Positions 37,083-54,540 of a DNA stretch of 64,000 bases are shown one piece after another. The DNA comes from Segetibacter sp. 3557_3. Its GTDB lineage: Bacteria > Bacteroidota > Bacteroidia > Chitinophagales > Chitinophagaceae. How positions within the stretch are numbered: position 1 is the first letter of the stretch; each line of letters opens with the position of its first letter. The notes beneath the pieces are model-generated. The model was given only the letters and a program-made list of their open reading frames with translations, was not told the origin of the DNA and did no database searches. A program made the position numbers and the translations under genes. Location: positions 248,001 through 312,000 of the forward strand of contig NZ_SMSK01000005.1 of assembly GCF_004354985.1 (NCBI RefSeq). Direction: 5' to 3'.

Positions 37083-37199
37083 GTAAGTGCAATTCTGGGG
37101 TACAGCGGTTGTAAAAACCGGTTCACCAACTACTCAAATAAGGTGTTATATAAAGTGGCATAAGTCATTGCGGAAAGATGCCGATCAAATCTCAAACGC

Positions 37200-37310
37200 C
37201 CAGATTAACAATAATGGCTGTTATCAATCCGCCCTCCGCTAATTCGCAAATCCGTAATCCGCCAATCCGCAATTCACTAATCCGCCAATCCGTTAATTCG
37301 TCAATCAAGG
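37200..37310 (+). repeat. Degenerate short tandem repeat (AATCCGC-type units)
   Basis: About ten 8-9 bp units such as AATCCGCC, AATCCGTT and AATTCGC run from about 37205 to 37305 in the gap between the adaptor and permease genes, reaching the 3' end of the adaptor gene. Confidence 0.75.
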
Positions 37311-38413: not shown

Positions 38414-38433
38414 AAAATGAACGCTTAATGCTT

Positions 38434-39768
38434 TTACTTAGTTGTTGTTGGTGATGTAAGCAAACCTGCAGTTTGCAAGAGCTTGTTGTATGCGAGTGCA
38501 GCATCTGCTTTGGCAAACTGGTAATTTAATTTCGCCTGCAATTGCGCAACGTCGGCATCCAGCAGGTCTGTTGTGGTCAACAGGGCATTGTTATACTTGT
38601 TTTTCGAAATCTTGTAGTTTTCTGTGGCCTGTTCAACAGCTTTTGCATATACCTCAATTTTCTTACGGCTCGATAAGTAATCCTGGTACGCTTTGTTGAT
38701 CTGCAGGTGTATGGCGTCGGTAAGTTGTTCCTGGCTTGCAATCACCTGTTTCTCTCTTGCTTTCGCCTGCTGCACTTTTGCGCTCTTCCACAAGGAAGCT
38801 ATATTGTATTGTACTCCTACACCTACATTTACCGCATTGGTTATGGTAAGAAAATTAGGAACATGTGCTGCAACATAACCGCCGGTGAGTGCAATGGAAG
38901 GAAGCGCCTCTGCTTTGGTGGCCATCACCGCGGTACTTGCCGCCTTTTTACGATAGTCCAGGGCTTCAATGTCTTTGCGATGTTGATTTGCCAACTGCTC
39001 GTATTCTGCAATGGATTTTACGGAAATCGTGTTATCCAGGTTGATGGAATCTGCCGCGATCTCTGTTGTTTCAGGCAGCCCCAGCATAAGGTTCATGTTT
39101 ACCATGGCCATCTTCCAGTTGTTTTCTGCATCAAGCAACGACAGTTCGATGTTCGACGTTTGAAGTTCTGCTTTCAACAATTCGTTTCTCGCCAACAGCC
39201 CATTTTTTTCGAGGTTGGAAAAGTCTTTTACGCGTTGCTTCGACTGCTCAAGGTTATCTTTAACCAGGCTTGTTGCAGCACGCGCCTTGTACAGGTTGGT
39301 GTAGGCATCCATGGTGTTCAGTACTACTTCTTCACGTTGGCTCTCACCGTCGAGAGCAATGGCCTGTTCAAGGTACCTGGCGGATGCGATCCCGTAACGG
39401 ATGCGGTGACCTGCATAGATCGGAAGGGATAAATTTACAATTCCGTAAACCGCTTGTGATACCGAAGGACCTCCGGCGCCTGCTGTACTGCTATCTTTAC
39501 CGGTCAGCAATTTGATATTTGGTTGCGCCAGCCTGAGGTATGAGCCGGAGGCGGTTGCATCAGGGAGACGCCTGTCGATTGCTTCACGCACGGTTGCCGC
39601 CGCCTCTTCCACCTGAGCCCGGTTGATCTTAAGTTGTTTGCTGTTTTTTATGCTCAGGTCAATTGCTTCCTCCAACGAAATGTGTTTTACATTCTGGCAA
39701 ATGGCTGAGTTGATAAAGAACAGCAGGCCGGAAAAGAAGAGCAAGCCCCTGAAAATCTTAACCTTCAT
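38434..39768 (-). CDS. TolC family outer-membrane efflux channel
   Basis: 444 aa with a signal peptide (to about residue 24) and two TolC repeats of long alpha-helical hairpins; KHISLEEAIDLSIKNSKQLKI opens the first and LTDAIHLQINKAYQDYLSSRKKI the second (key part LQINKAYQDYLSS). Its start overlaps the TetR stop by 11 bp, which couples repressor and channel translation. Confidence 0.93.
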   Translation of the reverse strand: MKVKIFRGLLFFSGLLFFINSAICQNVKHISLEEAIDLSIKNSKQLKINRAQVEEAAATVREAIDRRLPDATASGSYLRLAQPNIKLLTGKDSSTAGAGGPSVSQAVYGIVNLSLPIYAGHRIRYGIASARYLEQAIALDGESQREEVVLNTMDAYTNLYKARAATSLVKDNLEQSKQRVKDFSNLEKNGLLARNELLKAELQTSNIELSLLDAENNWKMAMVNMNLMLGLPETTEIAADSINLDNTISVKSIAEYEQLANQHRKDIEALDYRKKAASTAVMATKAEALPSIALTGGYVAAHVPNFLTITNAVNVGVGVQYNIASLWKSAKVQQAKAREKQVIASQEQLTDAIHLQINKAYQDYLSSRKKIEVYAKAVEQATENYKISKNKYNNALLTTTDLLDADVAQLQAKLNYQFAKADAALAYNKLLQTAGLLTSPTTTK

Positions 39769-40387
39769 AACTGAGTATTTCTTTGAAAATTGTTTTGATG
39801 TATGTTCCTAGCTTCTTTTTGATGTGGGTATCAAATTGTTCGTCAGAGAGCGATTGCAGGTTATGGAACTCACGGTAATAATCCTGGCTGATCATTACCT
39901 GTGTTATTGTACCAATCATTGTACTCATCATGAATACCACGTCGATGTTCTTTTTAAAGGCCCCGCGTTTCTGGCCGTCTTTAATGAGCCTGGTAATGCT
40001 TTCAGCGTTTTTGAATTTGAGCTCATTGATGAGTTTGATGATCACCGGGTTTTTGTTGACCACCTGTTCACAAAGCATGATCTTAAAAAATTGTTGCTTT
40101 TCCATTACCCGTGAGATGTACTCGTCTACCAGGAGGTACATCTTGTCCATAGGTTCCAATGCTGAATTTTGCAGGAGGTGATCAACGCGTTCCCGCACAT
40201 TCATGGAGCGTTTTTCGAAGATGGCTTCCATTAGTTTGAGCTTGGAGCCAAAGTAATAGGAGATCATGGCCAGGTTTACCCCTGCTTCTTCTGCGATGTC
40301 GCGAACGGAAGTACCGTCAAACCCCTTCGATGCAAACAGCTTTTCTGCCGTTTCCAATATCTGAAGTTGTTTATCACTTAACACCAT
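39758..40387 (-). CDS. TetR/AcrR family repressor of the efflux operon
   Basis: 209 aa from the ATG at 40387; the open frame extends 67 codons upstream, but these are the promoter region. The HTH is at residues 8-50 (ILETAEKLFASKGFDGTSVRDIAEEAGVNLAMISYYFGSK in pieces: FDGTSVRDIAEEAGV, MISYYFGSK). The C-terminal ligand domain is all-helical. It is the first gene of TetR-TolC-HlyD-EmrB and presumably represses its own operon through the sites at 40412-40444. Confidence 0.93.
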   Translation of the reverse strand: MVLSDKQLQILETAEKLFASKGFDGTSVRDIAEEAGVNLAMISYYFGSKLKLMEAIFEKRSMNVRERVDHLLQNSALEPMDKMYLLVDEYISRVMEKQQFFKIMLCEQVVNKNPVIIKLINELKFKNAESITRLIKDGQKRGAFKKNIDVVFMMSTMIGTITQVMISQDYYREFHNLQSLSDEQFDTHIKKKLGTYIKTIFKEILSYEG

Positions 40388-40404
40388 ATGCTTGTTTGAG
40401 GGAA

Positions 40405-40444
40405 CAAAACTAAACAAACGTTTAATTAAATCAAACAATTGTTT
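40405..40444 (-). promoter_or_regulatory. Efflux operon promoter with overlapping paired operators
   Basis: On the minus strand TTTG (40435-40432), 19 nt, TAGTTTTG (40412-40405): a perfect Bacteroidota promoter. Two AAACnnnnGTTT palindromes, 40412-40423 (AAACAAACGTTT) and 40433-40444 (AAACAATTGTTT), lie 21 bp apart, two helical turns, one touching the -7 box and the other covering the -33 box. This is the layout expected for TetR autorepression. Confidence 0.75.
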
Positions 40445-40593
40445 AAAGATATCTTTTAGGTGTCGATCATCAAATAGGTTTGTGCTGCACGGCAAGTAAC
40501 AAAACAGGAAGTTGGTGCGGAGCTGATAAGAGCTATTAAAGAAGATTAACGGCAATAGATTAGATGAAAGGAATAGGCAGGAAAACAAGATAG

Positions 40594-41011: not shown

Positions 41012-42682
41012 TTACCTGGGCCTTTTCCTGTTTAGGTCGTCGACCAGTCTTGCCGCTATTGTATCACCCTGTATCATTGCTTCCATCAGTAGCCTGGATC
41101 CCCGAACCGGGTTTCTTGCGAGATTACACCGGTCATAATAATTGGACTGGCGGAGGGTCTCCGGGTCGTTTGCATAAGTAAACAGGAACCCCGCTGTCCG
41201 CTTTGCAGGTGCATATCCCTTTGAGGCTGTTTCGAGCAAGAGATCAAACGCCTGCCTGCATGTTAATTCAGGATTGCGGTTTTTTAATGCGAGGGTGCTG
41301 TACATATACATTCCTTCAGGAACTTTCTTTTCTGCAAGCCTTTTATAAATGGTGAGTGCCTGCGACATCTTGTTACTCGCAAGGTATACTCTTGCTTCTG
41401 TAAGTTGAACGCTGGACTCATCATCAACAAGTTCAGGGTCTGGTGCAGGCGTCTGCGGGCTGTTATCAGCAATTGCCGGTTTCTGCTTGTTTACGCCAGC
41501 GTCAGACAAAAGCACATACACCAATCCGCCTATGACAATTACCACAAGCAGGGCCAACAAAACCGCACCGATAGTGATCCCCTTTTTGCGCGAGTCAGGA
41601 GGAGGGGCAACAGCGGCTGCCGATGTCTGTACATTTTGCACAGGGGTTGTTACGGAACCGGCGGTAACTGGTGCTGACTGCAGTTGTTTGCGGTAACGTT
41701 CGTTTTCGCGGAGCAAACGTTCGTTTTCCTGTTGCAGGATCTGAACCCGCTCCAGCCATTCGGATTTATTATCACCCAATATGCTGTTGCGTACCATATG
41801 AGCATGCAACTCCATGCCGTTCGGAAACCTTTTTGCCGGCTGCTTTTCAAGGCAGCGATAAATCATATTTACCAACCATTGCGGAACCTCCATCGCCTCA
41901 CAGCGTTTTTCATCACTCCAGTCTTTCGGCAGTGCGGCTTTTCGCAATTGGAGGAGGTCAGGTGGCGGTGTTTCCATTTGAGCCATCCGAACCACATTGC
42001 GTGATGTTTCGCCATTGTCTTTTAAAGGAAAAGGAACACTGCCCGCCAGCAACTCGAAGAGGATAACACCAAAACTATACACATCGGTTTCAAACAGCAT
42101 GACCCCCTCATTTTGTTCAGGTGCCATAAACTCTATGGCTCCTGCATGACGCATGCTTGTACGGCGCTGTTCGTCGGACATAATTGCAAGCCCGAAATCG
42201 AGGAGCACATAGTTGCCCGTACGCTTGTTGTATTTAACGTTATTGCTTTTGATATCTCCATGCCTTACACCAACCTGGTGGCAATGGGCAAGCGCGTCAG
42301 AAAGTTGCATGGCCACTTTCAAAGTTTCCTTAACGGTAAACACAGGTGGATGTGGAGGTTGAAGCAGGTCCGCAAGATCCGGTCCTTCTATAAACTCCAT
42401 TTCGATATAAGGAAAGTTTCCCGACTCGGTTATGCCGGAGTTGAGGATAGTGGCAACGTGTGGATTATGGTGTTCATTAACTTTCCGGAGTTTCTGCACC
42501 TCGTTTTGAAACTGCAGGTAGTTCTTGTCGGCCGTAGTTTCACTGTGAATTGGGGTAGGTAAAATTTTGATGGCAGTAATGATCTCACCCATTCGCCTTC
42601 CCCTGTATACTGAACCCTGACCGCCAGACCGAAGCGCCCCCATGTTCTCCAGGCCTTCGGCTATTGTAAATATCTTCCCCAT
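41012..42682 (-). CDS. Membrane Ser/Thr protein kinase with Sel1-like extracytoplasmic domain
   Basis: 556 aa. Hanks-type kinase domain at 1-290: glycine loop SGGQGSVYRGRR, ATP Lys in TAIKILP, catalytic loop HGDIKSNN (Gly in place of the Arg of HRD), DFGLA, APEQNEG. A short coiled coil (about 305-335), one membrane helix (GAVLLALLVVIVIGGLVYVLL, about 375-395), then a periplasmic part with two TPR/Sel1-like helices (AEKKVPEGMYMYSTLALKN, ASKGYAPAKRTAGFLFTYA). It is paralogous to the next kinase upstream and probably closes the cell-wall kinase cluster, after a 597-bp gap. Confidence 0.92.
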   Translation of the reverse strand: MGKIFTIAEGLENMGALRSGGQGSVYRGRRMGEIITAIKILPTPIHSETTADKNYLQFQNEVQKLRKVNEHHNPHVATILNSGITESGNFPYIEMEFIEGPDLADLLQPPHPPVFTVKETLKVAMQLSDALAHCHQVGVRHGDIKSNNVKYNKRTGNYVLLDFGLAIMSDEQRRTSMRHAGAIEFMAPEQNEGVMLFETDVYSFGVILFELLAGSVPFPLKDNGETSRNVVRMAQMETPPPDLLQLRKAALPKDWSDEKRCEAMEVPQWLVNMIYRCLEKQPAKRFPNGMELHAHMVRNSILGDNKSEWLERVQILQQENERLLRENERYRKQLQSAPVTAGSVTTPVQNVQTSAAAVAPPPDSRKKGITIGAVLLALLVVIVIGGLVYVLLSDAGVNKQKPAIADNSPQTPAPDPELVDDESSVQLTEARVYLASNKMSQALTIYKRLAEKKVPEGMYMYSTLALKNRNPELTCRQAFDLLLETASKGYAPAKRTAGFLFTYANDPETLRQSNYYDRCNLARNPVRGSRLLMEAMIQGDTIAARLVDDLNRKRPR

Positions 42683-43279
42683 GGATCAAATTAAATTAAA
42701 GATAGCAGATTAAAAATCGTTCCCGCTGTGCAGAGATACGTGTAATGGTTCATGGATGGATGGGCATTGATCATCTCTTGATGCTTGTTCCCTTTTGATT
42801 CGTTCTGATAAGGATAGGAGCACCATTAAATGTGTTCAATAAGTATCCTGTTGAAAGCAGATCTATGATTTGCAGCATTGGTGTAGTGGGTATCCTAAGT
42901 ATTGACTAATGTGTACGCGTATATTTCAACATTAGGTCGGGCTTTACGGAAGAACAAACCAGTGGTATTTTCGGGTTCATGCGCCAGGGATTGAAGCCCC
43001 GCCCGGATGGCCGGTCGGACGGGGCATTGTAGCAGGGGCTTGTGGCGGAGTAGTGGCGAAAAGCCCAACCTCCAGGTGGCGCACTAACGAAAACTATCTC
43101 AGCAGCAGATACAGGAATGCTTTATCGGATCGGCACAACATCACGCAACAACTTTCGTCTGACAAGGCGGGATGCTCAGCTAATTGTACGAAGACAACGT
43201 TTGTACCACTGGAACAATTGCGCAAAGGGGTGACCAGGTGAGCCTGGAAGGTTGCTGCAAAACGGCTTATCCGCAGGTG
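42683..43279. other. 597-bp gap between the two kinase genes, with a structured GC-rich element
   Basis: No ORF is convincing. At 42980-43075 there is a GC-rich block: AGGGATTGAAGC, then GCCCCG (42996-43001) able to pair with CGGGGC (43020-43025), then GTAGCAGGGGCTTGTGGCGG and GCGAAAAGCCC. The order resembles intergenic repeats I recall from Bacteroidota genomes (leader GATTGAAGC, trailer GCGAAAGCCC). I find no second copy in this window. Confidence 0.5.
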
Positions 43280-44959
43280 CTACTCCTCTATTTTATTCAG
43301 GTCTTTTTTTCGCAACCAGCCTTTTGAAGTCTGCCCCAGGTTGTTGGTAAAGACGACGTATACAAAATCGTTTTCTTCGTTTAACCCGTTTAGTGTTGCG
43401 TTGTTCCAATGAACGATATAAGCATTCCTGCGGGTCTCTTCCCGCGGCTGATCGTAGAAGTAAGCCTTTGAGATCACCTTGTAGCGGCCGGTAACTTCTG
43501 TTTCGACATCCGTTGTTACGGGTGGCGGCTCTGTTCGCTCAACCTTTTTTGTGTTTGTATCCGGCAGGGGTTCTGTAATCGTTTCCTGCGGACGGGTGAC
43601 AGGCTTTGGCATTTCAGCTTTGGGGGTATCTGCTGGAACCGTTTCTTTCTTTTCCGGCCTCCCCATCCGATCATCGTCGTTGCGTACAGGTTCACGTCTC
43701 ACCGGTTTCTGATCTTGAATACTTGCCGACCGTGCCGGCCGTTTTGCCTGGTAATAAAACTTGTATGCTGCATAGGCACCAAGACCGAGGATGGCGAGGA
43801 GCAGCAGTACAAGAATGGTTGAACCAGTTTTTTTTCCGGAAGCCGGTGCGTAATCAGGTCCGGAAGACCGCAATTCTTCCAGTTCACGATCTTTGTGATG
43901 CACGAGTGCTTTCAGGTTGTCCAACTCCTTTTCGCGTGTCTCGTATTTCTGGCGAAGTGCCAGCAGTTCCTTTTGTAGTGCTTCTTTCTCGTGGTATACG
44001 TTTTCAGTTTGCTGGTATAAATCGTCGCCGGGAACAGCCGGTTTTCTTCCTGAAAGCGAACTGTTTAAGATAACATAGTCGTGCAGTTCAATGCCATTTG
44101 CAAATCGTTCGCCTGTACCTTTCCTCAGGCAGCGATAAACCATTTGTACAATCCAGTCAGGAACATCCTTTTCATGCTGCTTTTTATCGTCACTCCAGCT
44201 TGCAGGTATCTTCATCCGGCGTAATTGCAGCAGATCCGGGGGAGGCGATTCCATATGTGCAAGTCTTACCTGGTTTCGCGCCGACTCGCCTTTATCGGTC
44301 AAAGGAAAAGGAACTGTGCCCGTAAGTAGTTCAAAGAGGATGACCCCAAAACTATACACGTCGGTCTGAAACATCATGAGCCCTTCATTTTGTTCAGGAG
44401 CCATGAACTCAATCGCCCCCGCATGACGTAGGCTGGTGCGCCTTTGTTCGTCGGACATTGCCGACAAACCAAAGTCGAGCAGGATGTAGTTGCCGGTGCG
44501 GGAATTGAACTTAACGTTGTTGCTTTTGATGTCGCCATGTTTTACACTCAGCTTATGACAATGCGCTAAAGCATTGGACAGCTGTTCGGCAACCTTGATG
44601 GTTTCTTTTATTGTGAAAACAGGATCGTGTGGAGGTTTCAGCAAGTCCTCGAGATCGGGCCCTTCGATATACTCCATTTCGATAAACGGAAAGTTGCCTG
44701 AGTCGGTAATGCCCGAACTGAGTATGCGCACAACATGCGGGTTTGGCACCTCGTTTACCTTACGGAGTTTTTGTACTTCATTCTGGAAGTCGGTGTAATT
44801 TTTATCTTCCGTGCTTTCGCTGTAAATTGGGGTTGGCAAAAGCTTGATAGCAGTAATAATTTCGCCTACTCTTCTTCCTTTATAAACAGAACCCTGCCCC
44901 CCGGTTTTCATTGCGCCCAGGTTCTCGAGTCCTTCTGTGATGGTAAACACCTTTGCCAT
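43280..44959 (-). CDS. Membrane Ser/Thr protein kinase with SH3-like extracytoplasmic domain
   Basis: 559 aa. Kinase domain 1-290: TGGQGSVYKGRR, AIKLLP, catalytic loop HGDIKSNN (again not HRD), DFGLS, APEQNEG. Coiled coil about 325-375, membrane helix STILVLLLLAILGLGAYAAY (about 385-405), a Pro/Lys/Glu-rich linker, and a C-terminal SH3_3-like domain (YKVISKAYFYDQP..., KGWLRKKDL) that could bind peptidoglycan or protein. It starts 2 bp after the FHA gene stop, so FHA and kinase are coupled. The two kinases are closely alike in the catalytic domain but differ outside the membrane. Confidence 0.93.
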   Translation of the reverse strand: MAKVFTITEGLENLGAMKTGGQGSVYKGRRVGEIITAIKLLPTPIYSESTEDKNYTDFQNEVQKLRKVNEVPNPHVVRILSSGITDSGNFPFIEMEYIEGPDLEDLLKPPHDPVFTIKETIKVAEQLSNALAHCHKLSVKHGDIKSNNVKFNSRTGNYILLDFGLSAMSDEQRRTSLRHAGAIEFMAPEQNEGLMMFQTDVYSFGVILFELLTGTVPFPLTDKGESARNQVRLAHMESPPPDLLQLRRMKIPASWSDDKKQHEKDVPDWIVQMVYRCLRKGTGERFANGIELHDYVILNSSLSGRKPAVPGDDLYQQTENVYHEKEALQKELLALRQKYETREKELDNLKALVHHKDRELEELRSSGPDYAPASGKKTGSTILVLLLLAILGLGAYAAYKFYYQAKRPARSASIQDQKPVRREPVRNDDDRMGRPEKKETVPADTPKAEMPKPVTRPQETITEPLPDTNTKKVERTEPPPVTTDVETEVTGRYKVISKAYFYDQPREETRRNAYIVHWNNATLNGLNEENDFVYVVFTNNLGQTSKGWLRKKDLNKIEE

Positions 44960-44961
44960 TA

Positions 44962-45747
44962 TTACTGGTGATTTTCAGGCTGATGTAAGGTAAATTCCAG
45001 CACTGCCGATTCACCCAACATAATCTGGTCACCTTCTTTAAGCTGGTGACCGATCTCAATCGTTTGAATCTTAGTCACATCGCCTTCGGCATCCCTGACC
45101 TTGGTTTTATTTAAAGGGGGAATGCCGCCCTCATCGGCATACAAAACGAAACCTGCCGACTCTGCATCCCACTCAATATGCGCATGTTGCCGGCTAACCG
45201 AACGGTTGCTGGCGTCGGTACTTGAGTTCGTGAAGGCGATATTGTTCTCGCGGTAAAAGCCGTCGGCAGTTTGAACCTTTTTCTCCCTGCCGATATTCAG
45301 TTTGCTTTTAACCGACCTGATGGGGTAAACATCTTTTTCTGCTATGCCATTCAGCACCCTGATGTAGGCCGTAAATTCTTTATGTGTAAGCTGCTTTTTA
45401 TTCGTTGCGATAAATAATGCCGCGTCGATGTTAGGAGCAACAATGGCTTCGGCAGGCGCGGGTTCAAAAATAAACTCCAGTACCCAGGCTGCAGGAAGCG
45501 AAAGGTCGAAGTCGTCAGCAATGCGCTGAACCTCTTCGTCCCTGAAGCGATCCTGTTCAGCCGCAAAAACAGCTGATTCATAGAGGTGACGATCGGCCTC
45601 GCTACAAGTCAGGTAGAGGTAAAGTCCTTTGATATTTGCGCCTTCCCCACCCTCAACCTTTTGCAATTGTTCCTTAATAAACTGGAGCAATGCACTGCGT
45701 ATGCCTTTAACATCCTCCGGCCGTTTGCTTTTGAAAATACTGAGCAT
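44962..45747 (-). CDS. FHA domain protein (C-terminal FHA)
   Basis: 261 aa. The first 150 residues are an acidic helical region of unknown fold. The FHA domain (about 165-255) shows LNIGRE, SNRSVSRQHAHIEW with the phosphothreonine-binding Arg/Ser, GGIPPLNKTKVRD and LKEGDQIMLGE. It should read phosphothreonines made by the neighbouring kinases. It lies 101 bp after the SEDS-PBP gene and 2 bp before a kinase. Confidence 0.92.
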   Translation of the reverse strand: MLSIFKSKRPEDVKGIRSALLQFIKEQLQKVEGGEGANIKGLYLYLTCSEADRHLYESAVFAAEQDRFRDEEVQRIADDFDLSLPAAWVLEFIFEPAPAEAIVAPNIDAALFIATNKKQLTHKEFTAYIRVLNGIAEKDVYPIRSVKSKLNIGREKKVQTADGFYRENNIAFTNSSTDASNRSVSRQHAHIEWDAESAGFVLYADEGGIPPLNKTKVRDAEGDVTKIQTIEIGHQLKEGDQIMLGESAVLEFTLHQPENHQ

Positions 45748-45848
45748 GAAAAAATGAGTTGTGTTCTTTATCTAAAGTGTTGTAAAAATACCATTTAGGC
45801 GTGTCGTTAAAATTGTTTTCCAAATTGCCTCCGGTTTTTAACAAACCC

Positions 45849-48800
45849 CTACCGAACCGTATCCGGACCGGCCCGTTCCAAAACAGCACCGAGTGCTGCA
45901 TCAGTCGGAATTTGCTTCGGGGTTTTGGCCCCGGGGATTGGAAAACCTTTGATATACCCGCGCTTCATCAACTCCGGAATAACATACAATCCAGCATACT
46001 TAACCGCTTCGCTTGATCCTTTTGCATTTTCAATCCTCACACAGGTTACAATATGACCGGGGCCATTTGCCTTTGGGGCGAAAAATACATACCACCCGTC
46101 ATTGATCACCTCGCTTCTTAAAATTCTTTCCGGAGTACCGGTTTTACCTGCTACACTTATGCCCAGGCGATGCACTTTTCCAATGCTTTGCTTGATCATA
46201 TACCCTTTTACGATTTCTGCATAGCGGGGCTGTTTCACAATCGGGATACCCGCAAGGATTGGCGTAGGGGTTCCACTCACATTTTGTACGTACCTGTTAG
46301 GCATCAGGGTTCCGTTGTTTGCAATACCGGCTGCAAGTCTTGCAACGGATGCGGGTGTAGCCACGAGTTCTCCCTGTCCCCACGACATACCAGAGATACC
46401 ACGGCCACGGGTGCGCCGGATATTGTTTGGATTGTAGATACGCTTACTCAATGCAAATTCTGTTTTCCGCCAGGTATTGCGCCAACGTTCCTGTTGGGCC
46501 GTGTTGTTTTGCTCATAATTGTAATAATATCCACCTACCCCATGTAAAAACATTCCTGCCTTCATATAAAGGGTCCCCATCTCTTCTTCGAGGTGTTCGT
46601 CATTTGCAAGCTTGATGAAAAACGAATTATTTGAACGAACCAGTGCCCGTTCGATACCAATATTACCAGCCTCATCGGGTTCAAACCCTTTAACCCTGAT
46701 CAGTTCGCCCCTGCTTATCGGGATAACCTTGTTTGCTGCCGCATCGCCCAGCTTATTAAAGGCTGCAAGTGTAGTCACGAGCTTTGCGGTACTACCAGGT
46801 TGGGTGGCAAGGGTAAACCCGATATCACTATTCACGTTCCAACCCGGCAACTTGTTCAATTGAGATTCGCTTAGTGTAAGCATATCCCAGTTGTTGATTG
46901 GAGGAAGCGGGTAAGCTGCTGAAGCAAGAACATCGCCGGTACGATCTTCCATGATTACGATGGAGGTTCTCTTCAATTTCAAAGAGTCGTCGAGGGATAT
47001 TAACCGCTGAAGGCTGGTCTGGAGGGCGGCATCCATGGTTAGTTGTACGTCGCGGTTTTTTTGTTTAAACGCCATCACTTCGGGGCTGTTTATCCCAGCC
47101 AGCAGTAAAGGCGTAAGCGCCGAATAGTCGCGGCGGACCACAGTCATTTCACGCGTAGTTCTCGGGAGAAAGCGATCGTGCCGGAACCTGCTTGCACTTA
47201 CCTGGAATTTTGTTACCGGTGTGGGAAAACCCCGCAGTTCAGCATCGTGTTCGTATTCGGCAAAGTAGCCGTTTGGTGAACCATTGAAAACTCCCGTATT
47301 TGCGTCACCTGTCCAGAAGAACATCTGGTCACCAAATGGATAATATCGTTCCAGTCGTTTATGTGATAATGCCTCAAGTTCGGGCTTAGAAATGCCGAGT
47401 GCAAGCAGGGAGTCCTGTTGGCTTGCAATCATTTCCGGTTTACTGGTTGCGAGTATCTTCCCTTTTCGGTCGAGCAGGTTTCCTGCCTGAAGCCGGTTGA
47501 TTAAAATCGATATTCTCGGGTTGTAACTGAACATTCTGGAGCCGCTGCGGTCGGCAACCAACGCGGGCTCTACCACCCACCTGTCGTTATTCAGGAGGTA
47601 CCGGCCAATGTTAACGGAGAGCAGGACAATGGCCACCAGGGCAGCCACAAGTGCCGGCATCAGGTTGCGATCCTGTTGCCGCATGATAAACTTCATTTGC
47701 GCGGGTGATCCGTGTATATGAGAGGCCGACAAAAGAATACCTGCGGCCATCATGTTACTTAAAAGCGATGACCCGCCATAGCTGATGAAAGGCAGTGCAA
47801 CCCCGGAAAGCGGTAACGCACCGGTGGAACCGCCTGCTATCAACAGAAATTGTACAAACGTACCTATACCAATACCGGCGCATGCATAAAACAGGAACGG
47901 CCTGCCCGTTTGACGACCGATAATAATTGCCCGGTGTAGAAATATCAGGAACAGGATAAAGATGCACAGGATACCAGCAAGTCCAAACTCTTCACCAATG
48001 GATGGTAAAATCATATCGGTATGGGCCTCGGGGATGGTCTTTGCAAACCCTTCGCCAATACCCTGGCCGGTTGTGCCGCCCGCAGACATGGCCCACATGC
48101 CATTGGCCACCTGGTCGCCCCCAAACACCTCGTTGTTCCACGCGTTTTGCCAGATTGCTTTGCGGTCAACAAGCCGCTGTACCGGTCCGGGAAATAATTG
48201 ATCCAGATAAGGCACCTGGTCGAGCAACATGAAGCCCGCCATAATTACCAGGGCCATCATAGCCGATTCGCTCAGGCGTTTCTTTTTTACCAGCATATAC
48301 AACCAGGTCAGGCCGAGTGTTACACCTGTAGCGAGCCAAACGTTATCGAGAAGCCAGTTACAAGCAATATAAAGCACCACCGCACCTGCCATAGGAAAAA
48401 AGTCACCCCTGGAAAATGAGAACAGAATGATGAAGGTAAAGCAACATACCATTGCCGGTCCAAGGTCGCCGAGGATTAGAAACAACAGGATAGTAGACAC
48501 GATCGCGACAAGTGCAAAGCCAAAAAAAGACCACCGCTTGTGCCAGGATGCATACTCGGAGATGAATTTTTCGTTGGTTGAAAAATAGCCCGCAAGAAAG
48601 ATGATCACAACAAACTTGACGATTTCACTCGGCTGAAAACCCAACAGGTTTACCTTAACCCCGCTTCCCTCTGGACCTGTTCCAAAGAAGATGGTTAGTG
48701 CAAGCAAGCTGACTGCAACAATAGCCCAGGGCCATCCATTAGCGGCCCTTCGATCGCTTTTAAATACAAACAACCGGTAAAGGCCAGAGTCGGTTGTAAA

Positions 48801-50000
48801 TTTCTTTAGGTCAAATAACAGTAAGATCAAAATACCGCCCATGCCTGCGGCAAAATAAGTAAGGGTATTTTTTGCCAAAAAGCGGTCGCGCAACGGATCC
48901 TGTAAACTAAACAACGTAATAAACGAAAAGCCGGTAAGGAGCATAAGTACCGGCAACAGCATTTGATCAGCAGAACGAAAGCGATAGCTGAGCAGGATAT
49001 GCAACAAGAAAAAAGAACCAAAAAAAGTCGCCACGATGATCCAAAACCAACGGGTCACTTCTTCCGGGGTTCGTACGATAAAAGCCTTTTCTTTTTTCAG
49101 GTTAGAGAAGTCACGTCCAGAAAACAACCGTAGGGTTTGTGGAGCCTGCGTAAAGCTCATTACCATCTCCTGCTTTAGTTGTTGAACTCCCTGGGAAGAG
49201 CCATATTGGTATCCGGGCCGAAGCGGTAAAACTTCGAAAGATTTATCTAATGGAAGACCATTAAAGGAAAATTTGCCCTGAGCATCGGTTCGTGCGTAAG
49301 CGGTGAAACTTTCCAGTGTTCGTTTGCCAACTGAGTCAACCAGGTAAAGACGGCGGATGCCGTTGCGAAACTCCACCTTCTTATTTTCAATTTCAGAAGC
49401 CAGGTCAGTATACACGCTATCGGGTGGTACCACCAGTTGCAAACGCACCAAAACCCCAGAAACACCAACACTGGTTGCCTCACCCACAGTACCGGAAATC
49501 CTGCCCTGGCCCAGGCCTATCGATTGCGAAGCCGGCACCTGGATGGGATTACGCTTCTCTTTTTCGAACATTTCTGCATCGCTTTCGGAAAAGCCTAAAA
49601 CCAGGCGCGAAACCGTAACCCTTTTTTTGAATGACTCTCCGCCACTTGCAAAGGCTTGCTCAGCCGGAATGTTGTACCGCGACTTGTTCAACTCTCCAAT
49701 GTTGTCAATGTCTTCTCCCGAAGCTGCGCTACCACGCTCAACTGCAGCACTGATGAGTGCAATATCCTTTTGATCCTGGAAATAAAATCCCCTTGTCAGC
49801 AGGGAACGCATGCGCTCGCCGGGGCGGTCGGCATTCAGGTTCATAATACTGCCATCGCGTAACCTGCGCGGCACGTCTGAAAAGTCTTTCTCCAGCACCT
49901 TAAACAGCTGGAAAAAACTAAAAGCCATTACAACGGTTATCAGAGCCAGGAAAACCCGTTCTATGTTTCGATTGCCTGATTCGTTAGCAGTTAAACCCAT
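45849..50000 (-). CDS. SEDS glycosyltransferase fused to class B penicillin-binding protein
   Basis: A 1383-aa peptidoglycan synthase from the ATG at 50000, preceded by GAGGG at SD distance; an ATG at 50048 lies inside the PP2C gene. Order (numbered from 50000): membrane helix 15-34; large periplasmic region with a carboxypeptidase-regulatory-like fold (about 165-275); FtsW/RodA polymerase 310-770 with GQGIGEGFAKTIPEAHTD (Asp of the SEDS active site, about 662) and PLSGVALPFISYGGSSLLSN; membrane helix (~785-805); class B PBP with LLDRKGKILATS, STAK (Ser about 1070), SNN (1123) and KTGT (1286). Polymerase and transpeptidase normally are two proteins (RodA-PBP2, FtsW-FtsI). Confidence 0.94.
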   Translation of the reverse strand: MGLTANESGNRNIERVFLALITVVMAFSFFQLFKVLEKDFSDVPRRLRDGSIMNLNADRPGERMRSLLTRGFYFQDQKDIALISAAVERGSAASGEDIDNIGELNKSRYNIPAEQAFASGGESFKKRVTVSRLVLGFSESDAEMFEKEKRNPIQVPASQSIGLGQGRISGTVGEATSVGVSGVLVRLQLVVPPDSVYTDLASEIENKKVEFRNGIRRLYLVDSVGKRTLESFTAYARTDAQGKFSFNGLPLDKSFEVLPLRPGYQYGSSQGVQQLKQEMVMSFTQAPQTLRLFSGRDFSNLKKEKAFIVRTPEEVTRWFWIIVATFFGSFFLLHILLSYRFRSADQMLLPVLMLLTGFSFITLFSLQDPLRDRFLAKNTLTYFAAGMGGILILLLFDLKKFTTDSGLYRLFVFKSDRRAANGWPWAIVAVSLLALTIFFGTGPEGSGVKVNLLGFQPSEIVKFVVIIFLAGYFSTNEKFISEYASWHKRWSFFGFALVAIVSTILLFLILGDLGPAMVCCFTFIILFSFSRGDFFPMAGAVVLYIACNWLLDNVWLATGVTLGLTWLYMLVKKKRLSESAMMALVIMAGFMLLDQVPYLDQLFPGPVQRLVDRKAIWQNAWNNEVFGGDQVANGMWAMSAGGTTGQGIGEGFAKTIPEAHTDMILPSIGEEFGLAGILCIFILFLIFLHRAIIIGRQTGRPFLFYACAGIGIGTFVQFLLIAGGSTGALPLSGVALPFISYGGSSLLSNMMAAGILLSASHIHGSPAQMKFIMRQQDRNLMPALVAALVAIVLLSVNIGRYLLNNDRWVVEPALVADRSGSRMFSYNPRISILINRLQAGNLLDRKGKILATSKPEMIASQQDSLLALGISKPELEALSHKRLERYYPFGDQMFFWTGDANTGVFNGSPNGYFAEYEHDAELRGFPTPVTKFQVSASRFRHDRFLPRTTREMTVVRRDYSALTPLLLAGINSPEVMAFKQKNRDVQLTMDAALQTSLQRLISLDDSLKLKRTSIVIMEDRTGDVLASAAYPLPPINNWDMLTLSESQLNKLPGWNVNSDIGFTLATQPGSTAKLVTTLAAFNKLGDAAANKVIPISRGELIRVKGFEPDEAGNIGIERALVRSNNSFFIKLANDEHLEEEMGTLYMKAGMFLHGVGGYYYNYEQNNTAQQERWRNTWRKTEFALSKRIYNPNNIRRTRGRGISGMSWGQGELVATPASVARLAAGIANNGTLMPNRYVQNVSGTPTPILAGIPIVKQPRYAEIVKGYMIKQSIGKVHRLGISVAGKTGTPERILRSEVINDGWYVFFAPKANGPGHIVTCVRIENAKGSSEAVKYAGLYVIPELMKRGYIKGFPIPGAKTPKQIPTDAALGAVLERAGPDTVR

Positions 50001-50014
50001 ACTTGCCCTCGTGA

Positions 50015-51427
50015 TTATTGTGTTAGTGAGTCGGTAACGATCGGCCATTCAGAAAGATTGCCTGATACCGGTAAACCTTGTGGAAACATAAACTGGTATT
50101 GAACAGGAATACGAACGTTTTTAAATTGTACATTCTTCAGGTGAAGGCCCTTATTCTGTACCAAAACACCGACGTCAAAATTCTCCAGTGTAAGACTATC
50201 CAGCAATACATAACGGCAGGATGTGCCCAGTGTAAAAGCGGGACCGGTGTAGCTGCTATCACCAACCAGGGTTGCCCCATTTCCCATTATATGTAAGGAA
50301 TCGTTGTTTATAAGTACTGAGTCGGTTATGGTCAATGGCGGTGCACCTGCAGCCGCAATCACAAAAACTTCTCCATTACTCGCGGCACCAATACTGTCTA
50401 CAAAACGACGTTCCTGTTCGTTTCGGTCTTTTTTTACAATGATGTTTGAAGACTGTTGCTGGTACACCCTCTTATTGTGATAACCCTTATAGAGCAACCA
50501 GAGAAAGGCGCCAAGCAGAACCAGGCAAAGTATCGATAGGATTGGTACGGTGCTGCTTTTTTTGGGTTCGGTGATGATGGTTTCAGTAGCGCTCAGGGGT
50601 TTCAGTGAAACTTCGTCTTCTACAGGATCCTCGGTTTGCTTCAGGCTTACCGCCGGCCTGAGTGCCTCCTGCTTGACCGGCGCCTTATCGTTATGCACCA
50701 ATACAACGGTAATATTATCCTTACCGCCAGCGTCGTTCGCGGCCTTGACAAGCGCTTTTCCTTTCTCTACAAGGGAGCTGTTGCTATTAAGGATGCTAAT
50801 CATTTGGCCATTGCTGATCATATCCGACAGGCCATCGCTGCACAACAGGAGGTAGTCACCTGGCAGAAAGGGCGAGTCAGCTGTTTCCAGGTACTCATCG
50901 GCATTAAACTGTGCATCAAAGCCAAGTGCTTTATTGATTTCATTGCGCTTAGGGTGCCGCATTGCTGCATCCTCGGATAAACGGCCATTGTCCTCCAGGA
51001 AGCCCACGAAGGAGTGATCTTTCGTAATTTTTACCAGGGAATTATCGCGAAGCAGGTAAAGTCGCGTATCTCCCACATGACAGTAATAGAACTTGTTTTC
51101 TTTGATGTCGACCAGTGCCAGGGTAACCACACAAGCCATTTGCGCGTTGTTTGGCTCACTCTTACGTTGCTGCTGAATTTTTTCATTTGCAGCAACAAAC
51201 GAGCGCTTCATAATCGCAAACACATCGTCTCCTCCCTTCTTCAAATGCTCAAGAATCATGTCGCGGGCAATACGTGCCGCCACTTCACCCCCGCTATATC
51301 CGCCGACCCCGTCGATCACGCAGGCTGCAATGAAACGTCCATTTGAAACGGGTTCAACTAGAAAAGCGTCTTCGTTGTTGCCGCGAACCTTCCCGGTATC
51401 GGTAATTCCAAAATAGTTACTCGCCAT
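50015..51427 (-). CDS. Membrane PP2C Ser/Thr phosphatase with extracytoplasmic domain
   Basis: 470 aa. PP2C domain 1-240 with RGNNEDAF, VIDGVGGYSGGE, HVGDTRLYLL, CSDGLSDMI and DNITVVL, carrying the metal-binding Asp residues. Linker, membrane helix (STVPILSILCLVLLGAFLWLL, given here as about 293-315), then about 150 outside residues with beta-helix-like repeats (GNGATLVGDSSYTGPAF, LENFDVGVLVQNKGLHLKN). PstP in Actinobacteria, the counterpart that reverses PknA/B, also has an outside domain, but not of this type. Its start overlaps the micro-ORF by 11 bp and its stop is 14 bp before the synthase ATG. Confidence 0.94.
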   Translation of the reverse strand: MASNYFGITDTGKVRGNNEDAFLVEPVSNGRFIAACVIDGVGGYSGGEVAARIARDMILEHLKKGGDDVFAIMKRSFVAANEKIQQQRKSEPNNAQMACVVTLALVDIKENKFYYCHVGDTRLYLLRDNSLVKITKDHSFVGFLEDNGRLSEDAAMRHPKRNEINKALGFDAQFNADEYLETADSPFLPGDYLLLCSDGLSDMISNGQMISILNSNSSLVEKGKALVKAANDAGGKDNITVVLVHNDKAPVKQEALRPAVSLKQTEDPVEDEVSLKPLSATETIITEPKKSSTVPILSILCLVLLGAFLWLLYKGYHNKRVYQQQSSNIIVKKDRNEQERRFVDSIGAASNGEVFVIAAAGAPPLTITDSVLINNDSLHIMGNGATLVGDSSYTGPAFTLGTSCRYVLLDSLTLENFDVGVLVQNKGLHLKNVQFKNVRIPVQYQFMFPQGLPVSGNLSEWPIVTDSLTQ

Positions 51428-51521
51428 TACGATGGGATTTTTTGATATCTAAAAAGTTTGCCACCAACAGCAAAACGCAGATGATAAAAATGGCAACTGA
51501 TAAGAATACGTGCATCGACAT
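51417..51521 (-). CDS. 34-aa membrane micro-ORF between FHA and PP2C genes
   Basis: The ATG shares one base with the TAA of the FHA gene (TAATG), and the stop TAA lies within the first codons of the PP2C gene (11-bp overlap). The peptide starts MSMHVFLSVAIFIICVLLL, continues VANFLDIKKSHRNGE and is one hydrophobic helix with a basic, polar tail. Coupling at both ends makes real translation plausible. It could be a small subunit or stabiliser of the membrane complex encoded here, or merely a coupling device. I do not recognise the family. Confidence 0.6.
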   Translation of the reverse strand: MSMHVFLSVAIFIICVLLLVANFLDIKKSHRNGE

Positions 51522-52471
51522 TATGCTTTAAATATGTTTATTCCAACGATCCCGTTCAGTACAATTCGCGAGTTGACCGGGAGTTCTACCCAGGTTGGTT
51601 TACCAGGCTCGCAAGCCGCCACTTCCTGCTCGTTTAAGACGGTCTTTTCGCCAAATGAAGCAAGTTGAAATTTGTTGTCCTGCTGATTGTGCCGTATTTG
51701 TAGATGCGGAGAGTTGACCCAATCGGAAGGTATCCTGAAGATATTTGTACCAGTGCGCTGTTCATCCTTACCTGATACCGTAATTTCTTCATCTTTCATC
51801 AGGTATTCAATCTTTTTACCGGCGTACTCCTTATCCGGTACAATCGTTTCCAGGCGCGCCAGCACTGCCGGTTCGGTGTTGGTAATGTTGCCTTCGTCTA
51901 CAACCAGGTCTTCACGGTAAGTAACTTCATAATACCCCTCGCTATAGAACGTAAATCCGTCAAGAATGTCGGGATTGATGTCGAAGGTTTGCGCTATGCC
52001 CGTCTGCCTGGGGATGTACGTCACCCGCAGGTTTTCTTCCTTTTGCTGCGCGTTGCCGGGGAGCAGTTTGCCAATAAAGCTTTTGTCGCCCCTGGGATAG
52101 TCGGGGTGTGAAACAAAACGGAAAACCCACTTATTGCTGGACGGCTGAACCGTTTTCCCCTGTGCCCGATATCCTTTTAGAATGGTGTAAAACTGGTTGA
52201 CGGACTCATGAATAATTAATCCAAAAATGCCCTTTTTATTGGCCATGAAGCCATTGTAATCCTCGGGGTTGAAACAAATGATAAACTCATGAAAAAAAAC
52301 AATCCGGTTTGCAAACGACAGCTGGCCTATCGACTCCTTGAACTTTTCTATTATGTATTTATAAACATCGTCAGGGGTTAAAACAGGCACCTGTTCCCTG
52401 GTAACGGTTGCCTCCTTTTTCAGAAACCAGTCGTGCAATCCAATGCGTTGCCAAAAAGAAGTGTTACTCAT
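51521..52471 (-). CDS. FHA domain protein with FhaA-like arrangement
   Basis: 316 aa. The N-terminal part contains FANRIVFFHEFIICFNPEDY followed by a helix with HESVNQFY; the order 'strand, N-P-x-D-Y, helix' recalls the N-terminal domain of actinobacterial FhaA (DUF3662), but this needs a profile search. The C-terminal FHA domain (about 225-316) is degenerate but visible: FRIPSDWVNSPHLQIRHN, NKFQLASFGEKTVLNE, PVNSRIVLNGIVGI. Stop and next ATG overlap by one base. It is probably the second gene of the cell-wall cluster. Confidence 0.82.
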   Translation of the reverse strand: MSNTSFWQRIGLHDWFLKKEATVTREQVPVLTPDDVYKYIIEKFKESIGQLSFANRIVFFHEFIICFNPEDYNGFMANKKGIFGLIIHESVNQFYTILKGYRAQGKTVQPSSNKWVFRFVSHPDYPRGDKSFIGKLLPGNAQQKEENLRVTYIPRQTGIAQTFDINPDILDGFTFYSEGYYEVTYREDLVVDEGNITNTEPAVLARLETIVPDKEYAGKKIEYLMKDEEITVSGKDEQRTGTNIFRIPSDWVNSPHLQIRHNQQDNKFQLASFGEKTVLNEQEVAACEPGKPTWVELPVNSRIVLNGIVGINIFKA

Positions 52472-52533
52472 TCAGTCGTCTTGTTTTGTGGATTAGGTAA
52501 TATCGCGGGTTACAACAAAACTAGTCGGAACCG

Positions 52534-53007
52534 TCATTCCTTTTTCTTCTTTCCAAAAAGCTTGTCGAAAAATTTCTTTAGGCCACGTTTTTTTTCCTTT
52601 TCTTCCTCAGGCTTAGCTTTTTCGCTGTCTGACTTTTTAGGCAGCTTTCGCTCGGTAATCGTTGACATACCAGCGGAGTCGGTGTTTGAAACAAGATTAT
52701 ATACTATGGCATTGTACGACTGCCGGTGCAATTTGTTTTGGGCATAAAATCGTGTGGGCGGATTGGTGATGACCGTTCGGGAGCCGAGTAATAACGGGTC
52801 CTGGTTGCCGGGCACCCTAAGGCTGTCCCAGGTTCTGCCGGCATTTACCGAATAGTAGTAAAAGCGATTTTCGGGATTGAAATAGACGTTTTTATCAGGG
52901 TAGAAATGAACCTCTGTTTGTTCTTCACCGGGTTGGGTTGAGCAGCCTGCAGCTAATAATAAAACTGGCAAAAGCAGGCTGGCTAAACGAAATTCGGGTG
53001 ACAACAT
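52534..53007 (-). CDS. Lipoprotein of unknown function, first gene of kinase/PBP cluster
   Basis: 157 aa from the ATG at 53007 (open frame to 53064). Signal with lipobox (LLPVLLLAAGC), then a beta-rich stretch (VHFYPDKNVYFNPENRFYYYSVNAGRTWDSL) shown by alternating aromatic residues, key part ENRFYYYSVNAGRTWD, and a highly charged Lys/Glu tail (GLKKFFDKLFGKKKKE). No family recognised. It lies 62 bp upstream of the FHA gene on the same strand and is a candidate periplasmic partner of the synthase. The 267 bp upstream show no ORF. Confidence 0.72.
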   Translation of the reverse strand: MLSPEFRLASLLLPVLLLAAGCSTQPGEEQTEVHFYPDKNVYFNPENRFYYYSVNAGRTWDSLRVPGNQDPLLLGSRTVITNPPTRFYAQNKLHRQSYNAIVYNLVSNTDSAGMSTITERKLPKKSDSEKAKPEEEKEKKRGLKKFFDKLFGKKKKE

Positions 53008-53274: not shown

Positions 53275-54540
53275 CTAAAACAAGGGTTTGACAAAACCTG
53301 CATTTACGCCGGCACTCATAAGACGCATATTTCCGATGCCAATACCGGTCAACGGGAGTTTCACATATGGCTCAACCCTGAACTGCCAGTCGCCCTGGAA
53401 CTTACCACTATAACCGATACCCAAGTTGGCCATTGCCAAAAAGTTGTTGGTACTGTTCCGGTAAGTTAACCGGCGTTGCATAATCTGCCAGTTATACCGG
53501 TAGGTATAATAATAATCCTCCTTTTTCATGATGTATGAGGAAACTCCTGCGGTAACAAACCAGTTTGCCTGTGGCCGCACGATCGCATTATATCTGCCAT
53601 TGAGCGAGATGTCGATCATGTTACACTTACCCCAAACATTTTCAATTTTGTAATTGGCAGGAATGGAGGTGCGCTGCTTGTCAAAGTATTCGCCGGTGCT
53701 GAAATAGGATTTTTTCTCCAGGAATGCAGACGCTTCCACCGCAAGTCGTTTGTTTATGGCATAACCGGCAACCAGGCCAATGCTAATACCCGGATCTTTT
53801 ACTTTTTGAAATTCGATAAAGCTGATGTCGGTGCCAACCAGCACCCCCGCATAAAACCGTTTTGTTTTGTTTATCTCCGGCATAAGACTGTTGCCTGCGA
53901 TTACAACTTCAGCAGCAGCATTGGAGTCGACCGGTACAGGGGTGTTCCCATTGTTCTGGTTGAGGATCGTGTCTGTTGCTGGTTTTGCTGCACCCGCAAT
54001 TTTGTCGTCCTGCTTGATTTCGATTGGCAGGGTGTTAGCTCCGGATGGCCGGATACTTCCCTTTGCAGCCGGCAGCGCGGGTTGTTTGTTGCTATTGAGC
54101 GCCATCTGAGCCGGCAGTTTGTTGCGGGAAGACAAGGCTTGATGGTGAGGTCCCGGTTTCTGCTGTTTGATGGTGTAGGTTCGAGCGTTGTTTATTGCAG
54201 CCTTAGCGGGGGACCGGTTTGTGTTAGGGTTGACTGGTTGCGACACCGGGGTGTTTTCTGCTGGAACGGGGTTCGATTTAACTTCGGTTGTTTTCGATAC
54301 CAGCTGATCAGCCCCCTTTTCACCAGGCTCCTCATTGCATAACCACGGTAATGGAAGCAAGAGCAGCAACCATAAGAAGTGAAGAAAGTTTTTGTTATTG
54401 CCTCTTTTATGACCGTTGTCGTCCTGATCACCTTCCATTCGGGTCATCACCTTATTAAAATCAGCCCCGTCGGTATTGAGGGGATAATCTTCGGCTGCCC
54501 GCCTGAATAAGTCATCTATATGGTCATCTACATGTAGCAT
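53275..54540 (-). CDS. Inner-membrane segment plus outer-membrane beta-barrel protein, sigma-factor partner
   Basis: 421 aa. Residues 1-48 are acidic and cytoplasm-like (DDHIDDLFRRAAEDYPLNTDG), followed by a hydrophobic segment (FLHFLWLLLLLPLPWL, 54-69), a long Asn/Pro/Lys-rich linker (70-225) and a barrel-like domain (about 228-421: FYAGVLVGTDISF, AGYAINKRLAVEASAF, AGVNAGFVKPLF with terminal Phe). The gene overlaps the sigma factor gene by 13 bp. I infer that the N-terminus holds the sigma factor like an anti-sigma domain, while the C-terminus resembles OM barrels. Confidence 0.8.
   Translation of the reverse strand: MLHVDDHIDDLFRRAAEDYPLNTDGADFNKVMTRMEGDQDDNGHKRGNNKNFLHFLWLLLLLPLPWLCNEEPGEKGADQLVSKTTEVKSNPVPAENTPVSQPVNPNTNRSPAKAAINNARTYTIKQQKPGPHHQALSSRNKLPAQMALNSNKQPALPAAKGSIRPSGANTLPIEIKQDDKIAGAAKPATDTILNQNNGNTPVPVDSNAAAEVVIAGNSLMPEINKTKRFYAGVLVGTDISFIEFQKVKDPGISIGLVAGYAINKRLAVEASAFLEKKSYFSTGEYFDKQRTSIPANYKIENVWGKCNMIDISLNGRYNAIVRPQANWFVTAGVSSYIMKKEDYYYTYRYNWQIMQRRLTYRNSTNNFLAMANLGIGYSGKFQGDWQFRVEPYVKLPLTGIGIGNMRLMSAGVNAGFVKPLF

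Follow-up and report, generated by a model that had tools for sequence, protein, structure and literature searches.

Does a cluster of kinase, phosphatase, FHA and cell-wall synthase genes in a member of the Bacteroidota share its origin with the actinobacterial locus that it resembles, or is it a look-alike, and what might it do? The actinobacterial locus comprises fhaA, fhaB, pstP, rodA, pbpA, pknA and pknB. The cluster in question lies in a 64,000-nucleotide stretch of the Segetibacter sp. 3557_3 genome (contig NZ_SMSK01000005.1, positions 248,001 to 312,000; the window), where eight genes on the minus strand, 53007-41012, encode in order a small lipoprotein, a first FHA protein (FHA1), a micro-protein, a PP2C phosphatase, a SEDS (shape, elongation, division and sporulation) protein fused to a class B penicillin-binding protein (PBP), a second FHA protein (FHA2) and two Ser/Thr kinases (Table 1). 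Pfam matches and coordinates bear out the first-pass annotation, which had placed kinase, phosphatase, FHA, SEDS and PBP genes together on one strand. The cluster is interpreted here, with a probability of about 0.7 and on sequence evidence, as a self-contained accessory peptidoglycan synthase that would be under its own Ser/Thr phosphorylation control and would represent a Bacteroidota branch of the actinobacterial locus stock. The observed base of that interpretation is gene content, linkage, catalytic residues, a third SEDS protein and, within the limits given below, SEDS ancestry.

The synthase combines FTSW_RODA_SPOVE (157.5 bits) and Transpeptidase (74.5 bits) matches, both above the Pfam cut-offs, in one 1399-residue frame, and misses the NCBIfam equivalog cut-offs for ftsW (163.3 against 337.5) and rodA (135.2 against 336.7). 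Its catalytic residues are invariant among nine aligned sequences (SEDS D678; PBP S1086/K1089, S1139/N1141 and K1302-T-G). The outside domain of about 290 residues that precedes the SEDS core matches CarboxypepD_reg at 44.8 bits in locus L123 (cut-off 32.3) and weakly, at 16.8 bits, in the window; judged from relatives, translation probably starts at 50000 rather than 50048. The nearest named loci of the fusion, among the best 80 of 348 matches to it, are from Segetibacter and Ferruginibacter, in keeping with a host in the Chitinophagaceae. Other contigs of the 6.75 Mb host genome carry an ordinary RodA adjoining PBP2 and an FtsW near FtsI, and the fusion is therefore a third, accessory SEDS protein. 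FHA2 is the only FHA protein in the genome above the Pfam cut-off, two of the three kinases above cut-off are in the cluster, and there is one PP2C_2 match besides the cluster's own. Elsewhere in the genome (L014), a kinase (40.7 bits, C10:27523-27870) adjoins a PP2C (103.7 bits, C10:28692-29375).

Conservation of the neighbourhood in relatives, on which the first-pass annotation had staked its reading, was tested by reading the gene order of 89 loci, nine from the FHA1 search and the best 80 of the 348 fusion matches, a sample that consequently leans to close relatives; matched cluster genes only were listed, and intergenic gaps were measured separately. In 81 of the 89 the genes run FHA1-PP2C-SEDS::PBP-FHA2 without any further matched cluster gene among them (in L037 the SEDS part is in two frames), while two loci have two kinases between PP2C and SEDS, one of which (L033) ends before FHA2 in the fetched stretch, and six are incomplete at contig ends. 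All three gaps are at most 450 bp in 79 of the 82 loci that have all four genes, the exceptions being L034, where kinases intervene, L037, where the frame is split, and L047, with 4.2 kb from SEDS to FHA2. At least one kinase is found in 77 of the 81 order-keeping loci, and the other four end at a contig edge on at least one side. Kinases stand at both ends in 34 loci, downstream only in 16 with one, 8 with two and 3 plus L037 with three, upstream only in 13, and as two upstream and one downstream in 2. Eight further, distant loci were found, of which six keep FHA1-PP2C-(kinase)-SEDS-FHA2 and two keep FHA1-SEDS-FHA2 without PP2C. By these counts the neighbourhood is conserved beyond chance, and loss of conservation, which would have refuted the first-pass reading, did not appear. 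The linkage persists down to 22% (FHA1) and 32% (fusion) identity to the window.

Distribution of the module is patchy, since the FHA1 search was positive in 10/395 genomes of the phylum, 22/195 of the host's own family and 41/201 of a second family, presumably the Sphingobacteriaceae; one of the 41, a 19.9-bit match within a 2367-residue frame, is kept in the count and is most likely spurious. An annotated copy (L126 4009-14565; FHA-PP2C-kinase-kinase-SEDS-FHA) lies on a plasmid of Spirosoma oryzicola, and the module can thus be plasmid-borne. The host's own family also holds a second, distant cluster type with one kinase between PP2C and SEDS (L157-L160), which, together with the L035/L161/L162 type, means that at least three cluster types coexist there.

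The first-pass annotation had left open whether the likeness to Actinobacteria reflects shared descent or convergence. Trees were built from the SEDS (27 rows) and PBP (25 rows) parts with 11 module members, five close relatives and L121, L122, L123, L034, L035 and L126. The actinobacterial references came from Nocardia (L127), Actinomyces oris (L129), Tsukamurella (L131 and L132) and, for RodA, Streptantibioticus (L130). L033, whose gene is incomplete in the stretch fetched, was left out, as were loci fetched later and L140 (Prevotella), and a Rhodococcus fusion was kept as a non-member. In the SEDS tree the 11 members form a clade (100/100), and a 100/99 branch separates a group of 16 rows, namely the module, the four actinobacterial RodA and an FHA-linked SEDS of the clostridial Monoglobus, from ten canonical FtsW/RodA/SpoVE and the Rhodococcus fusion, on a tree with long branches (module stem 1.58) in which rows are flagged as long or odd in make-up, Monoglobus among the odd. 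Module and actinobacterial RodA alone are joined at 84/92, which is not starred. Approximately unbiased (AU) tests reject placing the module with Bacteroidota RodA (p 0.008), its own FtsW (0.024), standard RodA (0.030) and FtsW (0.035), with groups named by function, sets chosen after the tree had been seen, and p values near 0.03 that are modest. At the start of the SEDS core, a His and a D..(L/I)(L/I)P motif were each seen by eye in 4/4 actinobacterial RodA and 10/11 module members, and the canonical rows and Monoglobus are without them. The best SEDS BLAST reference was an FHA-linked or actinobacterial RodA protein, and never the genome's own RodA or FtsW, in all 11 members. The SEDS part accordingly leans towards shared descent with actinobacterial RodA. 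In the PBP tree the module is again a clade, actinobacterial PbpA joins the clostridial FHA-linked PBP (99/98), and the AU test rejects the module with its own FtsI (p 0.025). The question of origin thus tips towards shared descent for the SEDS and FHA1 parts, with the PBP part unplaced.

For FHA1 the probable link is to FhaA. The window protein has no Pfam match, and FHA was detected at E<=0.1 in two of 46 aligned FHA1 members, the window included. An AlphaFold2 model (mean predicted local distance difference test score 75.5, predicted template modelling score 0.51) nonetheless showed an FHA fold in its C-terminal part when searched with Foldseek, and the FHA domain of FhaA (2lc1/3oun) is one of the best 50 matches; the N-domains of FHA1 and FHA2 gave no convincing match among the best 50 of each, and PDB sequence searches with the FHA1 and FHA2 profiles and the basal FHA1 of L123 gave no usable match. 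A Pfam FhaA_N search of 99 genomes of the phylum matched in three, two of them above the cut-off, and each of the three has a match to the gene that occupies the FHA1 position in its copy of the cluster (L121, L122 and L123). With hmmscan these basal members score 27.4, 23.7 and 19.9 bits respectively against PF12401 (cut-off 25), one over and two under, and they also match PF00498, L121 with an FHA of 47 bits. The FHA1 alignment matched in five of 146 genomes of the class to which the basal members belong. By hhalign, the N-domains of 15 FHA1 proteins, combined in a mixed-family profile, match actinobacterial FhaA_N with 86% probability (E 4.7e-6), and those of the three basal members alone with 41%. 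Shared descent of FHA1 and FhaA is the direction in which these comparisons lean. The other two FhaA_N matches belong to separate proteins: L124 9072-10373, adjoining a 1168-residue gene, combines HEPN_Swt1, a sub-cut-off FhaA_N stretch and FHA, and L125 3626-4930 is a similar-looking 434-residue gene beside an 1130-residue gene. FHA2 of L123 also begins with HEPN_Swt1.

FHA2 would be the phospho-reader. Its FHA domain scores 22.5 bits (cut-off 20.7), Foldseek finds the FHA fold in its AlphaFold2 model, and the reader residues IGR and SRxH are kept in 86/86 relatives. An FhaA_N-like N-domain in FHA2, first suggested by a like order of helices and strands, was dropped because hhalign gave it 0.2-0.3%.

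Both kinases exceed the PF00069 cut-off (112.1 and 113.8 bits for kinases 1 and 2), and Lys, HxD, DFG and APE-type motifs are kept in 130 of 138 family kinases. The motif names SxxK/SxN/KTG, HRD, non-RD and lipobox are used in their usual sense. HRD, as in PknA/PknB, is found in L033, L034, L123 and one of the two L035 kinases, the other L035 kinase matching no pattern. The window kinases share 28-33% identity with PknB from three Actinobacteria and score 137.7 and 131.5 bits against NF033483 (cut-off 450). No PASTA domain was matched in them by Pfam, and the 25 of 28 matched families listed for 29 family kinases include neither PASTA nor a bacterial SH3 model. The outside domains predicted in the first-pass annotation fared unevenly: neither SH3 nor Sel1 has a Pfam match in the window kinases, while among the 29 family kinases TPR_16 matches four and Sel1 one, and among 23 phosphatases Beta_helix matches two and a pectate-lyase-like model three; the Sel1-like and beta-helix proposals gain partial support from this and the SH3 proposal does not. 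The phosphatase itself matches PF13672 (PP2C_2, 54.1 bits, above cut-off) and NCBIfam Stp1 (206.6 bits, under the cut-off of 230), has metal-site residues invariant in 23 aligned sequences, is 36% identical to Nocardia PstP (127 bits), and joins PP2C to a transmembrane (TM) helix, placed by eye, as in PstP.

Between FHA1 and PP2C, a permissive scan found a hydrophobic small open reading frame in 83 of 84 loci (all but L035); a stricter scan that also asked for the tail motif found it in 80 of the 84 and in the window, where its ATG overlaps the FHA1 stop and its own stop falls within the PP2C start. Across 79 distinct sequences (1456 pairs), codons with a single change comprise 8683 synonymous and 3574 nonsynonymous differences, against 25% synonymous expected, and the frame is evidently a real gene. 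Actinobacterial fhaB, which starts with a TM helix, occupies the same place. Position and helix invite speculation that the micro-protein is an FhaB remnant; homology is not claimed for some 20 hydrophobic residues.

Set beside the actinobacterial pstP locus, the module shares a probably FhaA-type scaffold, a membrane PP2C, a SEDS protein of the actinobacterial RodA kind, a class B PBP and two membrane kinases. It also shares the order FhaA-PP2C-SEDS-PBP-kinase-kinase, as read in the loci of A. oris and Nocardia (L127) and as given in excerpts of PMC6554272 and PMC11898655. The A. oris locus (L129) is annotated as DUF3662+FHA, FHA, PP2C, SEDS, PBP2, kinase and PASTA kinase. In contrast, the module fuses SEDS and PBP and adds the outside domain, has a 34-residue TM micro-protein at the place of the absent FhaB, inserts FHA2 between PBP and kinase, has mostly non-RD kinases in which no PASTA was seen, and in Bacteroidota forms an accessory third synthase. 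The equation of its gene content with the actinobacterial set, made in the first-pass annotation, therefore stands for the FhaA-like, PP2C, SEDS, PBP and downstream kinase genes, their order included; it fails for FhaB, which is absent from its place, for PASTA, of which no match was seen, and for the separate RodA- and PbpA-like genes, which are fused, and the evidence does not extend it to orthology of the kinases and FHA2. In its excerpts PMC11898655 describes FhaA as a phosphothreonine reader that interacts with MviN and CwlM, and those of PMC6554272 describe a cluster conserved in Actinobacteria, a pknB-fhaA cluster in a subset of Firmicutes, and a growth arrest on knock-down of the pstP operon. 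Neither set of excerpts mentions Bacteroidota, the word 'Bacteroidetes' occurs 0 times in the review PMC6213207, and a full-text search of open-licence PMC literature, in the portions it returned, found no report of such a cluster from that phylum.

Other systems resemble single features. In Monoglobus (L135), the best BLAST reference for the SEDS part of 8/11 and the PBP part of 10/11 module members, an FHA gene adjoins SEDS and PBP, but these are separate genes and no kinase or PP2C is annotated in the stretch shown. The Rhodococcus plasmid pRWAY03 (L128 7077-9902) has SEDS::PBP in one frame but no annotated kinase or FHA neighbours, and falls outside the module in both trees; by that placement the fusion evidently arose independently. 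Two more Rhodococcus plasmids gave tblastn matches (H12, H16) under genes labelled FtsW/RodA/SpoVE. The RodA-PBP2 and FtsW-FtsI pairs of Bacteroidota have the same enzyme families and catalytic motifs but belong to another SEDS clade, and no kinase or FHA genes are annotated beside PBP2-RodA of Parabacteroides (L141). Taken with the trees, these comparisons make the module most likely a Bacteroidota variant of the known actinobacterial kind of locus. At least in its SEDS and FhaA-like parts it is most likely related to that locus by divergence, and not a set brought together by chance or convergence.

Table 1. Genes of the cluster, with window coordinates and predicted features.
Feature	Position	Strand	Remarks
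Small lipoprotein	52534..53007	-	Lipobox LLAAGC by eye; accessory
FHA1, FhaA-like	51521..52471	-	FhaA_N-like domain, residues ~28-130; degenerate C-terminal FHA fold, residues ~205-316
Micro-protein, 34 residues, one TM helix	51417..51521	-	Tail motif (H/N)F-x-(D/E/N)-(I/V)
PP2C phosphatase	50015..51427	-	PP2C, residues 1-250; TM, residues ~296-316, by eye; beta-helix-like extracytoplasmic domain
SEDS::class B PBP fusion, 1399 residues	45849..50048	-	TM1; extracytoplasmic domain of ~290 residues; SEDS core, residues 333-800; transpeptidase, residues 1029-1345
FHA2	44962..45747	-	N-domain outside known families; canonical FHA (IGR ... SRxH)
Ser/Thr kinase 1	43280..44959	-	HGD, non-RD; coiled coil and TM by eye; extracytoplasmic C-terminal domain SH3-like by eye only
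Ser/Thr kinase 2	41012..42682	-	HGD, non-RD; TM by eye; extracytoplasmic TPR/Sel1-like region

The lipoprotein is BLAST-matched beside the cluster in some loci only (L027, L036-L040, L055, L056, L064 and L112). Upstream of the cluster, also on the minus strand, 53275-55091 holds the gene for an extracytoplasmic function (ECF) sigma factor and, after it, a gene whose Pfam match to an outer membrane protein beta-barrel stays below the cut-off. Just downstream, at 35502-40588 on the same strand, are TetR, TolC-like, HlyD-like and MFS genes, named from reading their sequences, which make up an ordinary tripartite efflux set. Comparison of the flanking genes with nine relatives gave two matches only, a lipoprotein-like one in L027 and a weak ECF one in L032.

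For the signal, the phospho-target, the docking and the function in the wall, the following scheme is proposed. With their outside domains the membrane kinases would sense the condition of the wall or the periplasm, and they would then phosphorylate a target, which might be the other kinase, FHA1 or a cytoplasmic site in the synthase complex. FHA2 would recognise the phospho-threonine and dock, while FHA1, an FhaA-type scaffold with a degenerate FHA domain in this clade, and the one-helix micro-protein may anchor the complex at the membrane, and PP2C would reset the system. The fusion would polymerise glycan through its SEDS Asp and cross-link it through SxxK/SxN/KTG in a fixed one-to-one ratio, working beside the ordinary RodA-PBP2 and FtsW-FtsI pairs.

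Several observations, besides the limits of the SEDS tree and AU tests given above, weigh against a phosphorylation-controlled synthase of actinobacterial stock. On the side of ancestry, the close FHA1 relatives of the window alone align to FhaA_N with 3% probability by hhalign, the FHA2 N-domain shows no relation to FhaA_N by the same method, and the second-best SEDS BLAST match of several members is an Ilyobacter FtsW. The PBP part joins actinobacterial PbpA and Monoglobus at 63/38 only, and AU tests do not reject it with Bacteroidota PBP2 (p 0.42) or FtsI (p 0.43). The window kinases score 88-98 bits against PknB and 145-150 bits against the kinase KIN_e of L035. On the side of control, FHA1 of the window clade has lost the S-R of the phosphate-binding motif and retained its His, and 131 of the 138 kinases read HGD (non-RD) in the loop motif, with HRD in five and neither in two. 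Some relatives have their kinases upstream, or else inserted between PP2C and SEDS; in L047, SEDS::PBP and FHA2 are 4.2 kb apart, with other sequence in the gap; neither PP2C nor a kinase was matched near the synthase in L121, L122 and L163; and kinase 2 of the window, set off from kinase 1 by 597 bp, may for that reason be on a separate transcript.

The points on ancestry would suit a look-alike that arose within Bacteroidota out of the RodA/FtsW, PBP2, FHA and kinase genes of that phylum, as would the long branches of the SEDS placement and outside domains that, like the kinases, are unlike those of PknA/PknB. Such convergence is nevertheless quite unlikely, as it is at odds with the AU rejection of Bacteroidota RodA and the genome's own FtsW, with the presence of FhaA_N in basal members, at the position expected, with the SEDS N-terminal columns common to actinobacterial RodA and the module, and with the best SEDS BLAST references in 11/11 members. 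Mere co-location, in which the synthase would be independent and the kinase, PP2C and FHA genes would act on other targets, is unlikely as well: in L121, L122 and L163 the synthase stands with FHA1 and an FHA2-position gene and no PP2C or kinase was matched beside it, yet FHA1 keeps its link to the synthase in loci without adjacent kinases too, linkage survives to the low identities given above, and the genome has no FHA protein above cut-off other than FHA2.

Should the signalling have decayed, with a degenerate FHA1 and non-RD kinases serving as scaffold only, the synthase would be constitutive. The replacement of S-R-x-H, the canonical FHA motif, by (N/S/D)-x-P-H in 80/82 FHA1 sequences and the prevalence of HGD fit this, whereas the kinase motifs conserved in 130/138, the invariant PP2C metal residues in 23 and the FHA2 residues in 86/86 argue that the signalling parts are kept, making decay distinctly improbable. 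A phospho-signalling defence or secretion system (kinase-kinase-phosphatase defence, the PD-T4-6 kinase or a type VI secretion system (T6SS) threonine-phosphorylation pathway) is very improbable indeed, even with window kinases that match PADLOC PD-T4-6 models (best 149.9 bits) and one distant copy on the Spirosoma plasmid: the constant partner is a wall synthase, and no T6SS gene is among the 17 annotated features of L126, the host's own genome not having been searched for T6SS. A defence system as such was rejected, the PADLOC matches (E<=1e-5) being confined to the kinase domains of two of six cluster proteins, with none in FHA1, FHA2, PP2C or the synthase. An accessory synthase under its own phosphorylation control, related to the actinobacterial locus, is therefore the preferred interpretation.

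Most work on Ser/Thr kinase control of SEDS-PBP synthases has been done in Gram-positive and mycobacterial cells, in which these parts are separate. A broader picture, offered tentatively and at somewhat less than even odds, is that of a transferable phospho-controlled synthase module of one stock in Actinobacteria, some Firmicutes and Bacteroidota, which in Bacteroidota would have gained a single SEDS::PBP with a new outside domain and a membrane micro-protein of about 30 residues in the place of FhaB, while the FHA of FhaA became a pseudo-FHA and FHA2 the phospho-reader. Because the synthase is one polypeptide, FHA2 is the sole FHA protein above cut-off and the ordinary RodA and FtsW are kept, the cell may be able to do without the module, whose parts might then be removed one at a time. 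For structural studies the module offers a natural one-to-one fusion of SEDS and class B PBP, and for studies of the actinobacterial locus a distant relative to compare.

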